Below, piece after piece: positions 4,342 to 47,750 of a stretch of 64,000 nt of DNA. The stretch spans positions 1-64,000 of the forward strand of contig NZ_BCRP01000005.1 in NCBI RefSeq assembly GCF_001552655.1, written 5' to 3'. Position numbers and translations under genes: made by a program. The notes beneath the pieces were generated by a model. It did no database searches. It was not told the DNA's origin and was given only the letters and a program-made list of their open reading frames with translations. The stretch is from Alicyclobacillus kakegawensis NBRC 103104 (GTDB lineage: Bacteria; Bacillota; Bacilli; Alicyclobacillales; Alicyclobacillaceae). Each line of letters begins with the position of its first letter. Position 1 is the stretch's first letter.

Positions 4342-5712
4342 TTACGACTTCGGGATTGCCGCATTCATGCTCTTCACGAACTGTTGCGGTGTCATCTTCA
4401 AAACGAACACGCTGTTGAGATCCTTCAGCAAGGTCTGCGCTTCAGACGGCGGCAACAATTGGTCCCAACCGGTCACAAACACAGGTGCTTTTTCAGCCTT
4501 GTTGTACACATAGGTGAGGAAATTGGAGTCCGGAACATTCTTGAAGTCGCCTGCAAGTCCTTTGACCGGCGGAATGACGCCGTTTTGAATCTCGGTTTTG
4601 ATCTCGTAACTGTTCAGTGGAACATCCTTCAAATACTCTTCAGCGCCGCTAATATCTTTGCTGCTGGAGGACACCGAATAGTAGGTCGATATGTTGCCCA
4701 TCAAGTCATTCGGGTTGCCCTTGCCGCCAGGAACTTTCGGGAACGTGGTCCAACCCAAATCTTGCGATGTAAATTGAGGAGCAGACGACTTCAACGATGG
4801 AAAGATCCAGGAACCCTGAAGCAACATCGCGGCTTTACCGGAATACAGAAGCGCCTGATCTTCATTGCTGTCGGCACTGACACCTGCATAACCGTTTTCA
4901 AATCCGCCAGCCCGAATCAGCTGCTGAATCATTTGGATAGCCTTGGCCACAGCCGGATTGCTCCACGCATTCGGCTTATTGTTGATGATGTTGTTGAACA
5001 CTGACGGTCCACCGATTCGATCCGTTAGATACATGAGCCACAGAAGGTCTGGCCACTGATCGCGTGCCCCGAGCGAGATCGGCGCGATACCATTCGCTTT
5101 CAAGGTCTTCACGTCAGACAACAATTGAGGCCAGGTTGTCGGTACAGGCAAGTGATACTTTCGGAAGATGGCCTTGTTGTAGAAGAGAAGCTCTGGTTGC
5201 GTACCGGCGCCTTCAGGCACACCGTACACATGGCCATTGAACGTCACGTTACCCCAGACGCCGGGGAAGAACTTGTTCTTGTAAGATGGATTTGCTTTCA
5301 AGAACGAGTCAAGATTGACAACTTTATGAGCGTCCACATAGGTTTTGAGCGTGCCACCACCCCAGCTGAAAATGATATCTGGCGGGTTGTTTGCGCCCAT
5401 CGCAATCTGAATCTTTTGCTTGTACGCGTTGTCGTTATAGAACTGAATTTTTGCGGTGACTTGTTTCTGTGACTTGTTGAAGTTATCCGTAGCCGTTTGC
5501 ATCATGTTTTGCATGGTGCCACTTTCGGAATCCCAAATAGTGATGGTATGGCTTGTAGATGAACTCGCACTGCCGCCATTCGATCCGTTTGAGCTCTGTG
5601 TGTTGCTGTTGCTGCCTGCGTTACTGGTGTTTCCGCCCGTACCGCAACCAGCGACCAACCCAGTAAAGGTGAGTGCCAGCGCCGTCGTTACCAATGCACT
5701 TTTCTTCAGCAT
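4342..5712 (-). CDS. sugar ABC transporter substrate-binding lipoprotein
   Basis: A 456-residue extracellular binding protein of the SBP_bac_1 type. It has a lipoprotein signal with lipobox LVAGC (Cys23), then a low-complexity Ser/Asn/Gly linker of about 30 residues, then the ligand-binding lobes (TITIWDSESG start, YGVPEG, LLFYNKAIF motifs typical of CUT1 proteins). The linker is usual for Gram-positive membrane-anchored binding proteins. It is the first structural gene after the regulator and sits behind the predicted operator. Co-transcription with GH30 suggests a beta-glucoside oligosaccharide as ligand; this is inference. Confidence 0.9.
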   Translation of the reverse strand: MLKKSALVTTALALTFTGLVAGCGTGGNTSNAGSNSNTQSSNGSNGGSASSSTSHTITIWDSESGTMQNMMQTATDNFNKSQKQVTAKIQFYNDNAYKQKIQIAMGANNPPDIIFSWGGGTLKTYVDAHKVVNLDSFLKANPSYKNKFFPGVWGNVTFNGHVYGVPEGAGTQPELLFYNKAIFRKYHLPVPTTWPQLLSDVKTLKANGIAPISLGARDQWPDLLWLMYLTDRIGGPSVFNNIINNKPNAWSNPAVAKAIQMIQQLIRAGGFENGYAGVSADSNEDQALLYSGKAAMLLQGSWIFPSLKSSAPQFTSQDLGWTTFPKVPGGKGNPNDLMGNISTYYSVSSSSKDISGAEEYLKDVPLNSYEIKTEIQNGVIPPVKGLAGDFKNVPDSNFLTYVYNKAEKAPVFVTGWDQLLPPSEAQTLLKDLNSVFVLKMTPQQFVKSMNAAIPKS

Positions 5713-22817: not shown

Positions 22818-24206
<1,389 letters not shown>

Positions 24207-27661: not shown

Positions 27662-28009
27662 TACCACCCCCGCGTGCGCGTATCCGCCCGTCTGAACGGG
27701 CGAACTTCCCCGTTTGCGCCTAACCCCGGCCGCCCGCAGGCGTACGACCGCGGCCGGATTGCAGGCCTCAGTGAACCTTACGTCGAACCTTGGGAACGCT
27801 TTGCGTCCCGCCGGGACGCAAAGCGTCCCTTAACGGAAGCACAACATGCTTCCCACCCGGGCCCACAAACCGTCCCAGGCCGCCGGCCATGCCGCCGAGA
27901 CCCACAAAAGCGGGGCGGCCGTATCTTGTCCGCCACCGCCCCGTCTGTTCTTCCCAGCGCGCACCGCCGATTGGTTCCTGCACGATCTGGTTATGGGTCC
28001 GACACTTGT
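27662..28009. other. gene-less stretch between accA and pfkA
   Basis: No supportable gene; an 81-codon minus frame here has no ribosome site and no family resemblance. The striking content is the long perfect-type hairpin at 27792-27829 and many short GC-rich inverted repeats around it. A promoter for pfkA-pyk may lie close to 27700 but I see no clear hexamers. Confidence 0.4.
27792..27829. repeat. long inverted repeat (17-bp stem)
   Basis: The arms GGGAACGCTTTGCGTCCC and GGGACGCAAAGCGTCCC pair over 17 bases with one extra A, closing a three-base GCC loop. Neither strand continues with a T run, so it is not an ordinary terminator. It sits in the untranslated space between accA and pfkA, 130 bases before pfkA. 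Confidence 0.75.
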
Positions 28010-45228: not shown

Positions 45229-45483
45229 ATGGGCGTTCTCGAGAATTTCGACCGGTGGCAGGAGTTTCTCGGCGATCAGGTGAACAAGGCGCACGCGATG
45301 GGCATGTCTGAGGACCAAGTGACCGCCGTCGCCAAGAAAATGGGAGACTACCTGGCCAACAAGGTGGACCCCAAGAACGAGCAGGAGCGCCTGCTCAAGG
45401 AGTTATGGGACGTGGGAGACGACCAGGACCGGATGGCTCTGGCGCGTATGATGATCCGGATGTCCGAGCACCAAGTCCACTGA
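45229..45483 (+). CDS. DUF3243 domain protein
   Basis: An 84-residue all-helical protein of the DUF3243 family (YmfJ-like), found only in Firmicutes. The conserved run is NFDRWQEFLGDQVNKAHAMG near the start and ANKVDPKNEQERLLKELWDVG in the middle. GGAGG stands eight bases before the ATG. Function unknown; B. subtilis YmfJ lies near the competence/recA region, which is not visible here. Confidence 0.85.
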   Translation: MGVLENFDRWQEFLGDQVNKAHAMGMSEDQVTAVAKKMGDYLANKVDPKNEQERLLKELWDVGDDQDRMALARMMIRMSEHQVH

Positions 45484-45595
45484 CCCTTGCGAGAAAATCA
45501 GCGGCCCTGGGGACCAGCCCGCCCCAGGCCGCCGACTTTGCTGCAGGTGTGAAGTTCGGTGTGCGAGGAAATGGGGCACTGTGCCAAGCCCGCAG

Positions 45596-46279
45596 TCAGA
45601 CCTCGATGCTCTCACCAGGCTGCAAGACGGCCCCCTTCAACCCTTTTTCCGCCAGCGCACGCACGTATGCCTGCGCATCCTGGCGAATCAGGTCAAACGT
45701 GTTGTAGTGCATCGGGATGACCAGCCCGGCTTGAAGCCATTCCGCCGCGATGAGAGCGTCCTCCGGGCCCATCGTGAAGTTGTCGCCGATGGGCAGCGCG
45801 GCCACATCGATGCGGTTGAGCTCTCCAAGCAGCCGCATGTCGCCGAACAAAGCGGTGTCTCCCGCGTGATAAAGCGTCTTTTCGCCCATCGTGAGCAAAA
45901 ATCCGCATGGGTTGCCCGCATACAGCAGCTGGTCCCCGTCCTCCAGCGCCGATCCGTGGAAGGCCAGGGTCAGTTTCACGCGGCCAAAGTCGAAGGTGTG
46001 CGCCCCGCCCAAATGCATTGGGTGCACCCGGCAGCCCCGCCGTCCGTACAGGATGGCCAATTCATTGGGGGCCACGATGAGGGCGTCATTGGCTTTCGCT
46101 ATCGCCTCCGCGTCGGCCACGTGGTCGGCATGGCCGTGCGTGAGCAGGACCGCCTCTGCCCGGATGTCCTCCGGTTTCGCCACCGCTGTCGGATTGCCGG
46201 ACAGGAACGGGTCAATCACAACGGTGTGCCCGTCCGCTTCAACGACAAAACACGCCTGCCCATGAAAGGTCAGCTTCAC
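45596..46279 (-). CDS. UPF0173 metal-dependent hydrolase (metallo-beta-lactamase fold)
   Basis: A 227-residue hydrolase of the YtkL/UPF0173 family. The HxHxDH zinc site is LLTHGHADHVAD near residue 48; further ligands are His in YHAGDTALFGDM near 138 and in VIPMHYNTF near 187. The start is GTG at 46279 behind GGGAGGG; the longer frame to 46378 overlaps the upstream gene. Substrate unknown. It lies 16 bases after the YlbF-like gene on the same strand. Confidence 0.9.
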   Translation of the reverse strand: MKLTFHGQACFVVEADGHTVVIDPFLSGNPTAVAKPEDIRAEAVLLTHGHADHVADAEAIAKANDALIVAPNELAILYGRRGCRVHPMHLGGAHTFDFGRVKLTLAFHGSALEDGDQLLYAGNPCGFLLTMGEKTLYHAGDTALFGDMRLLGELNRIDVAALPIGDNFTMGPEDALIAAEWLQAGLVIPMHYNTFDLIRQDAQAYVRALAEKGLKGAVLQPGESIEV

Positions 46280-46295
46280 GTCAATCCCTCCCGCT

Positions 46296-46667
46296 TTACT
46301 CGTTTTCTTTCGTATCCCCGAGCCCCGGGTGCGGCAGGAGCGCATCCTCGACCACCTTGGACAGGATGTCTTGAACATCCATCAACATGACGGTCAATTG
46401 CCGCTCCGCCTCCAGGTACTCGCTGACATCGCGGTTGAGGCGGACAATCTCCGCCAGCCGCGCGAGGTTATCCTTCTCTTCCTGGGAAAGCTCCTGGCCG
46501 TCGATGATCTTGGTCTGCATCTCCCACTCGCGCAATCGAAAATCCTGCAGCATATGTAAAGTCGATGGGTCCTGCTCGATACGCTCGCGGGCGTCCTTGA
46601 GCCTTCGAAATACCTCAGAGCTGCGGATTTCCTTGGCTAATTCATGCGCCCTGTCGTACGGATTCAT
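46296..46667 (-). CDS. YlbF/YmcA family protein
   Basis: A 123-residue helical protein of the YlbF/YmcA/YheA family. PYDRAHELAKEIRSSEVFRRLKDA and the middle ELSQEEKDNLARLAEIVRLN are typical. In B. subtilis YlbF, YmcA and YaaT form a complex that guides RNase Y and affects sporulation, competence and biofilm; which paralogue this is cannot be settled by eye. The ATG at 46667 lies behind GGGAGG. It is transcribed away from the globin gene. Confidence 0.8.
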   Translation of the reverse strand: MNPYDRAHELAKEIRSSEVFRRLKDARERIEQDPSTLHMLQDFRLREWEMQTKIIDGQELSQEEKDNLARLAEIVRLNRDVSEYLEAERQLTVMLMDVQDILSKVVEDALLPHPGLGDTKENE

Positions 46668-46730
46668 GGCCGACCTCCCATCTGACTCGCCGGCTGCGTG
46701 CACCTTGCAGGTCCGACGCATCTAGTTCCA

Positions 46731-46769
46731 GTATAGCGAATTTGTGAGGACCGAACCATTCGCTATACT
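46731..46769. promoter_or_regulatory. inverted repeat with divergent -10 boxes, ylbF-like/globin
   Basis: GTATAGCGAAT (46731-46741) and ATTCGCTATAC (46758-46768) are perfect 11-base arms 16 bases apart. The plus strand has TTGTGA (46742-46747), 16 bases, TATACT (46764-46769), a good promoter for the globin gene. By symmetry the left arm holds TATACT on the minus strand for the ylbF-like gene. A dimeric regulator bound to both arms would cover both -10 boxes. Confidence 0.6.
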
Positions 46770-46850
46770 ATGGAGTATGAGCCTGCTTGACCGGTTGCCA
46801 ACAAGCGGCTTCACCCTGACAGGCTCATTCGCAGAAAAGGAGTGTGCCAC

Positions 46851-47252
46851 ATGCGAGGGATTCCCAGTCCGGCCACCATCTACGAGATGATTGGCGGGGC
46901 GGATACGATTCGCGAGTTGGTCACGCATTTTTACGATTATGTGGCGCAGGACCCGGATTTACGCCCGATTTTCCCAGAGGATTTTACCGAGATTCGGGAG
47001 AAGCAATATGCATTCTTGACCCAGTTTTTTGGCGGCCCGCAACTGTACAGTGAAACCTATGGACCGCCGATGATGCGCGCCCGGCACCTGCCTCACCCGG
47101 TCACGCCGCGCCGCGCGAAAGCATGGCTGAGCTGCATGGAGCGAGCCATGGATGACACAGGAATCACCGGGGATGCCCGCAGGTTCATGCTGCAGAGACT
47201 GACGCTGACGGCCCATCATATGGTGAACACCCCGGACGATGAAGCCGAATAG
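46851..47252 (+). CDS. group II truncated hemoglobin
   Basis: A 133-residue haem protein of the 2/2 globin family (YjbI/GlbO type). It has IYEMIGGADTIRELVTHFYDYV at its start with the distal Tyr, PIFPEDF, QYAFLTQFFGGPQLYSETYGPPMMRARHLPH with the proximal His, and the group II Trp in RAKAWLSCM. Such proteins bind O2 or NO in stress defence. ATG at 46851 is eight bases after AAGGAG; a GTG at 46842 is too close. Regulation probably acts through the inverted repeat upstream. Confidence 0.93.
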   Translation: MRGIPSPATIYEMIGGADTIRELVTHFYDYVAQDPDLRPIFPEDFTEIREKQYAFLTQFFGGPQLYSETYGPPMMRARHLPHPVTPRRAKAWLSCMERAMDDTGITGDARRFMLQRLTLTAHHMVNTPDDEAE

Positions 47253-47282
47253 GGGCAAACCCACTGGCGAAGGAGGACAACC

Positions 47283-47750
47283 ATGCCGCTGAGACTGGCC
47301 GAGTGGCGCAAGCAGAAAGGTTGGACGCAGGCCCGTCTGGCCAAGGAAACGGGACTGTCGGCGAGCGCCGTCGCCATGTATGAAACCGGCCGCCGCACGC
47401 CGGATGCGGGCGCGTTGGCGCGCTTGGCCGCCGCCTTGGGCGTGTCCATCTCCGACCTCACCGATGCCGGGACGGAGGCGGCGGCCAAACAGGACGGAGT
47501 CCCGGCCGCGGGACAAACGAATAAGGCGCCGCCGGCCAATGCCCCTGTTCCGCCGGCTGCAAAAGCGCCGCCCGGCGTTTGGTCGCCGGCCACCGCCATC
47601 CCGCTGTCGGGAGAGGAGGCGCGCATTGTTCTGTTTCTGCGCCTGCACCCGGAAGCGGTGCCGTTTCTCGTCGAATACGTGAGCGCGCCCGAGGAACGCA
47701 GGCAACAGCTGGAGAAAACCTGGCAGTTGATTCGAAACTTCCCTATCTGA
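47283..47750 (+). CDS. Xre-family helix-turn-helix protein
   Basis: A 155-residue protein. Residues 4-58 form a Cro/C1-type HTH (LAEWRKQKGWTQARLAKETGLSASAVAMYETGRRTPDAG). A Pro/Ala-rich linker (about 68-100) leads to a short helical carboxyl domain (LSGEEARIVLFLRLHPEAVPFLVEYVSAPEERRQQLE). The start follows AAGGAGG and lies 30 bases after the globin stop, so the two may be co-transcribed. Target genes are unknown. Confidence 0.82.
   Translation: MPLRLAEWRKQKGWTQARLAKETGLSASAVAMYETGRRTPDAGALARLAAALGVSISDLTDAGTEAAAKQDGVPAAGQTNKAPPANAPVPPAAKAPPGVWSPATAIPLSGEEARIVLFLRLHPEAVPFLVEYVSAPEERRQQLEKTWQLIRNFPI

Follow-up and report, generated by a model that had tools for sequence, protein, structure and literature searches.

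Introduction

Between a truncated haemoglobin gene and a divergent gene of the YlbF family, the genome of Alicyclobacillus kakegawensis NBRC 103104 carries a perfect inverted repeat with a TATACT hexamer in each arm. This arrangement raises the question of whether the repeat is an operator, through which one regulator would control both genes, or a pair of promoters with closely similar sequences. The repeat occupies positions 46730–46769 of the window, by which is meant the whole stretch of DNA that was analysed (64,000 nt; contig NZ_BCRP01000005.1, positions 1–64,000). In our assessment, it probably consists of two housekeeping promoters (sigma-A type) that are separate and point away from each other. 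The features of the locus are as follows.

45596–46279, minus strand: metal-dependent hydrolase with a metallo-beta-lactamase fold, downstream of the YheA-like gene
46296–46667, minus strand: YheA-like Com_YlbF (PF06133) protein, 123 aa, start ATG at 46667
46730–46741, minus strand: left arm, with the putative -10 hexamer TATACT (46735–46730) of the YheA-like gene, about 60–68 nt from the start codon
46742–46747, plus strand: TTGTGA, weak -35-like hexamer of the putative globin promoter, 4/6 match to TTGACA, 16-bp spacer
46758–46769, plus strand: right arm, with the putative -10 hexamer TATACT (46764–46769) of the globin gene and TTCGC before the hexamer; 19 of the 25 divergent pairs carry TATACT here
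46851–47252, plus strand: truncated haemoglobin (Bac_globin, PF01152), 133 aa
47283–47750, plus strand: XRE-type helix-turn-helix protein, downstream of the globin; present at 24 of the 25 loci with the divergent pair

The inverted repeat and its chance level

The two arms, AGTATAGCGAAT at 46730–46741 and ATTCGCTATACT at 46758–46769, are 100% complementary over 12 bp each and lie 16 nt apart. Within each arm, TATACT lies on the same strand as the gene on that side, at 46764–46769 on the plus strand and at 46730–46735 on the minus strand. The original prediction had described a perfect 11-bp inverted repeat with one TATACT per arm and strand, 16 bases apart. The repeat is indeed real and perfect and both hexamers are present, but the arms are 12 bp long, and the 16 bases are the distance between the arms, while the hexamers themselves are 28 bp apart.

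Perfect arms of at least 12 bp separated by 3–40 nt occur three times in the window, compared to a mean of 0.2 in 20 first-order Markov sequences of window length. One of the other two lies at 47424, inside the XRE gene, and the other at 27796, with a 3-nt loop. The latter repeat (27796–27826) has perfect arms of 14 bp, which are the longest in the window at gaps of 3–40. When scaled to the 3.42-Mb genome, chance alone would give approximately 10 repeats of this kind. In a set of 38 divergent intergenic regions of 40–600 bp, taken from 444 kb of the genome, the repeat at 46730–46769 has the longest arms (12 bp), followed by arms of 11 and then 8 bp. The inverted repeat exceeds local chance, yet it is not extraordinary genome-wide.

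It had been suggested that the repeat be looked for elsewhere. A search of the 3.42-Mb genome found no further copy of the whole repeat, which is present at this locus only. Single arms with at most one mismatch occur at five places in the genome compared to four for control patterns, so nothing rises above the control level. A third exact copy of ATTCGCTATACT is single and lies just upstream of another ORF, which is divergent to a gene that we take to be membrane-protease-like; at this site, the AGTATAGCGAAT core is retained in all three genus members. In addition, there are two one-mismatch copies, one of which, GTTCGCTATACT, falls in apparent coding sequence. The third copy and its conserved core have the character of a promoter -10 region, used once there and twice at the repeat. 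Finally, AGTATA-N(14-44)-TATACT was found at 57 places in 41 family genomes compared to 157 places for the reversed control pattern, so the back-to-back arrangement of TATACT is no general motif. At the orthologous region, it is found in genomes G000, G021, G022, and G028.

Genes on either side of the repeat

The left-hand gene had been interpreted as encoding a YlbF-like RNA-decay or sporulation factor. The family assignment stands, as the protein belongs to Com_YlbF (PF06133), but its best solved relative is YheA (PDB 2oee, E 4e-13). Its three structure matches up to E 0.01 are YheA, DUF964, and SP1372, and the RicA/RicF structures (2pih, 6prh, and 6prk) are not among them. RicA/RicF structures are instead matched by two further PF06133 proteins of the same genome, and the gene for one of these is located directly behind what is presumably a MiaB-like gene. 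Because the protein in the window is nearest to YheA while two other PF06133 proteins match RicA/RicF, the proposed link to development is weakened, and the label “RNA-decay/sporulation factor” is not secure for this protein. In Staphylococcus aureus, the YheA, YmcA, and YlbF genes have been deleted, and an effect through RNase Y is suggested in the accessible portion of that report (PMC12445100). YheA may thus still take part in RNA decay.

The right-hand protein matches the truncated haemoglobins of PDB 2bkm (E 4e-46) and YjbI 1ux8 (E 5e-40), and its best matches are three entries named “Globin” (5v3t, 5v3v, and 5v3u). The 5′ leader of its gene contains a 9-bp inverted repeat. The globin leaders of three species fold little better than shuffled sequences (z −0.88, −1.21, and −0.45), and no Rfam family matched the globin leader at gathering scores. 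The globin leader of A. herbarius is approximately 60 bp longer and includes a stretch with inverted ends (L002:2889–2980). A second partial copy of this stretch, 86% identical, is present elsewhere in the same genome, and none is found in two sister genomes; the stretch is perhaps a small mobile or repeat element. A leader of another kind, a T-box, is found at 23839–24111 of the window on the minus strand.

A literature search found nothing that joins a truncated hemoglobin with YheA or with Alicyclobacillus, nor a TATACT promoter with Alicyclobacillus. Likewise, a search for literature on back-to-back promoters found nothing.

Probable promoter character of the hexamers

Hexamer enrichment was measured across the 444-kb sample, in which genes were defined by a codon-usage caller and 285 upstream segments were taken. 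In these segments, TATACT is 8.3-fold enriched (18 sense compared to 9 antisense occurrences) and TATAAT is 10.1-fold enriched (22 compared to 17). No other of the 25 listed hexamers of the form TA???T, commonest first, reaches these values; next come TAGACT at 7.7 and TACAAT at 6.1. AT-rich intergenic DNA lifts other hexamers too, such as TATTTT at 4.3-fold. The distance from the -10 hexamer to the start codon is 87 bases on the globin side and about 60–68 bases on the YheA side, where 87 and 68 are the values given by our script. A scan of 46000–47600 returned two promoter-like sites compared to a shuffle mean of 0.5, and the second of these is without the left arm.

The original prediction also named TTGTGA as a -35 element on the globin side. 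It is present 16 bp upstream of the plus-strand hexamer, although it is weak; it is kept in three genus members and is absent from the 21 other pairs scored. On the YheA side, the corresponding hexamer is TGGTTC, a poor match of 2/6 compared to a genome mean of about 3, and this counts against the reading of the repeat as two promoters. Across the orthologous pairs, the best -35 scores average 3.04 for the globin and 2.96 for the YheA side; this scoring took 24 of the 25 pairs, with L040 left out because it is without a clear globin -10. The corresponding values are 2.98 at 47 upstream TATA[ACG]T sites of the window's own genome and 2.30 at 5000 random places. The -35 scores at the orthologous pairs are ordinary.

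Further observations also weigh against two promoters as the whole account. Among 45 promoter-like sites of the window's own genome, identical six bases upstream of both hexamers occur in only 2 of 990 pairs, one of which is the pair of the repeat. Moreover, an outward-facing TATA[ACG]T pair is found in only 4 of 42 divergent intergenic regions of the sample. Lastly, 14 of 25 genomes, made up of 3 from the window's genus and 11 of the 15 in group g2, have TTCGN ahead of the globin -10, yet among the 45 sampled TATA[ACG]T sites of the window's own genome, a sample outside which the third exact arm copy lies, TTCGN is found at the pair of the repeat only. This recurrence among relatives, together with rarity in the genome itself, suggests that selection beyond the plain -10 may act there. 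On the globin side, G is often the base two positions ahead of the hexamer (position -14), and TTCGN may represent an extended -10 or a contact of some factor.

Conservation of the divergent pair

Of the 41 family genomes examined, 25 have the YheA-like and globin genes as a divergent pair no more than 700 bp apart, and these cover 7 of 16 genera. A globin match exists in 38 of the 41 genomes, and in G018, G020, and G036 a YheA-like match is present, but at another place. The wider order DUF3243, hydrolase, YheA-like/globin, XRE (window 45229–47750) is largely kept in many family genomes.

Hexamers at the orthologous pairs were picked from a self-chosen list of 14. In L049, L054, and L055, the self-overlapping ATTATAAT was set aside and the globin-proximal TATACT was taken, which gives a gap of about 89 in L049. 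With these choices, the globin-side -10 in the 25 pairs is TATACT in 19, TATAAT in 3, TATAGT in 2, and unclear in 1, and the YheA-side -10 is TATAAT in 16, TATACT in 8, and GATACT in 1. Outward TATA[ACG]T pairs are present in 23 of the 25 orthologous regions compared to a mean of 0.085 in Markov copies, which gave no more than 2 in any of 200 rounds; the regions are related rather than independent, so they are not 25 separate tests. Together with the upstream enrichment of TATACT, these pairs bear out in substance the fallback of the original prediction, in which the repeat was a symmetric two-way promoter pair.

The distance between the two hexamers is 28 bp in all three members of the window's genus, 33 in G028, and 31 in G029. 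Elsewhere, it is 39–50 in several genomes and 81–94 in others, and in G025 the hexamers overlap (−2).

Symmetry of the arms and the question of a regulator

It had been proposed that a single dimeric regulator of the NsrR, Rex, or Fnr type acts at the repeat. In one form of this proposal, one dimeric protein, such as the XRE protein encoded after the globin, would bind the two arms and repress both promoters. This is suggested by the perfect symmetry over 12 bp, by the presence of the XRE gene in nearly all loci with the divergent pair, which makes this neighbour a candidate regulator, and by the occurrence of ATTCGCTATACT at the globin promoter in two distant species. A conserved operator would be expected to keep its symmetry among relatives, and the closest of these are informative.

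The window genome is close to A. shizuokensis, whose globin is 98% identical, and the globin of A. herbarius is 88% identical. The arms are perfect in two of the three genus members, namely the window genome and A. shizuokensis (L001; the same repeat in G022). In A. herbarius (L002, G021), the arms are AGTATAGCGGAT and ATTCGATATACT; both TATACT hexamers are intact, and there is one change per arm, at non-matching positions, with no compensation seen. Non-conservation of the arms had been put forward as a result that would speak against the original proposal, and the -10 hexamers are kept in all three genus members, with the symmetry lost in A. herbarius. In addition, the six bases before the hexamers are no more alike within genomes than between them (17 compared to a shuffled mean of 16.3, p 0.45, in nine self-chosen clade representatives out of 17 listed pairs). 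The uncompensated changes and this test speak against a conserved symmetric operator. So do the changed spacing of the sites in other genera, the uniqueness of the whole repeat in the genome, and the single state of the third arm copy.

Searches for sites of known regulators give the same picture. Consensus patterns for Rex, Fnr, NsrR, and TGTGA-N6-TCACA were used, with up to three mismatches allowed, and none of the three regulator types proposed has a match at the repeat. The Rex operator consensus is TTGTGA-N6-TCACAA; it has 11 matches in the window at up to three mismatches, none of them at the repeat. The Rex N-terminal domain (PF06971) has no match in the genome at E up to 0.001, compared to matches in 7 of 14 control genomes. 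The Fnr-type consensus has 170 matches in the window, where 130 are expected, and none at 46730–46769, and the NsrR-type consensus has no match in the window. TGTGA-N6-TCACA is found at 46743 only with three mismatches, as one of 156 matches compared to 183 expected. Two Rrf2 proteins score above the family cut-off, so members of the NsrR family exist in the genome, and nothing ties either to the repeat.

An operator of a dimeric regulator is therefore not supported as the explanation, since the symmetry is not kept among relatives and the site does not recur as in a regulon; we consider it improbable.

Another paired element was seen elsewhere. AGTATACT-N12-AGTATACT lies between genes that we take to be fabG-like and acpP-like (L122, about 5440–5480; G000:C3:145452) in all three genus members, and it is possibly an operator or a twin promoter of a fatty-acid operon.

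Origin of the symmetry

The perfect match of the arms could also have a mutational origin. The globin-side sequence ATTCGCTATACTA is common to G007 and G008, whose globins are 59–60% identical, and the YheA promoters of these genomes are TATAAT in another context. For this reason, the right arm appears to predate the left, so that inverted copying is conceivable. The left promoter may thus have arisen, or become perfectly symmetric, by template-switch copying of an older globin -10 region, and homogenisation of arms by template switching is described in the accessible portion of PMC8604942. However, one lineage alone displays this symmetry, and the partly symmetric pair of g7, which has a 33-bp gap, may be independent. 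Moreover, two promoters can agree by chance, and the common ATTCGC may be convergent. Template switching is on balance an unlikely origin. A more elaborate version, in which inverted copying of the old TTCGC-TATACT region created in one step a new or strengthened promoter, with mutually exclusive polymerase sites and a coupling of the globin and YheA-like genes that would need no regulator, is quite doubtful.

Two probable divergent promoters

Two separate sigma-A type promoters remain the preferred reading of the repeat. The right promoter would transcribe the globin and XRE genes, and the left promoter would transcribe the YheA-like and hydrolase genes. The stretch would read as a palindrome because both promoters use the same -10 region, ATTCGC-TATACT. 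The perfect match itself may reflect chance together with promoter constraint, or homogenisation of the arms.

RNA polymerase covers roughly -40 to +20 of a promoter. Transcripts start about 7 bp past the -10 according to the accessible portion of PMC12825309, and from the positions of the two -10 hexamers we infer starts near 46776 on the plus strand and 46723 on the minus strand, approximately 53 bp apart. Two polymerases at these sites would both cover the middle of the repeat. The promoters therefore probably compete, and a dedicated dimeric regulator would not be needed.

If this is correct, a striking palindrome at a redox-type gene is explained by two ordinary promoters, which spares a hunt for a regulator. 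What remains of use is the conserved divergent neighbourhood, together with the repeated occurrence of TTCGN ahead of the globin -10. In addition, the spacing of the divergent -10 hexamers, which in relatives ranges from an overlap to about 94 bp, offers a natural series for studying coupling through polymerase competition.

Comparison with known systems

Both proteins have known counterparts. The closest solved structure to the left-hand protein is YheA of the Com_YlbF family, while RicA/RicF structures are matched by two other proteins of the genome. The globin resembles the truncated haemoglobins of Bacillaceae (Geobacillus 2bkm and YjbI) in protein sequence, and it is set apart from them by its neighbours, a YheA-like gene and an XRE gene.

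The bidirectional promoters of Warman, Grainger, and colleagues (PMC12825309) share with the locus, in the accessible portion of that work, symmetry, divergent genes, and possible competition between polymerases. A strict bidirectional promoter, with one shared -10 read both ways, might therefore be considered here, and the overlapping hexamers AGTATATAAT at the orthologous place in G025 (L060) also point in this direction. As defined in that portion of PMC12825309, however, such promoters share the -10 and have starts mostly 18, but also 10 or 23, bp apart, and separate divergent promoters are excluded. The window has two separate -10 hexamers 28 bp apart and predicted starts about 53 bp apart. 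Under this rule, as given there, the pair is divergent rather than bidirectional because the -10 is not shared, and a strict bidirectional promoter is very improbable in the window. The G025 region, for its part, is a candidate for a strict bidirectional promoter that serves the orthologous two genes.

The nearest parallel is found in separate divergent sigma-A/sigma-70 promoters with overlapping polymerase sites, which likewise have two outward -10 elements on opposite strands serving two genes. The pair in the window differs from these in its unusually alike -10 regions and in a perfect symmetry of 12 bp in two species. In this comparison, the locus is probably an unexceptional pair of divergent promoters within a conserved set of neighbouring genes.
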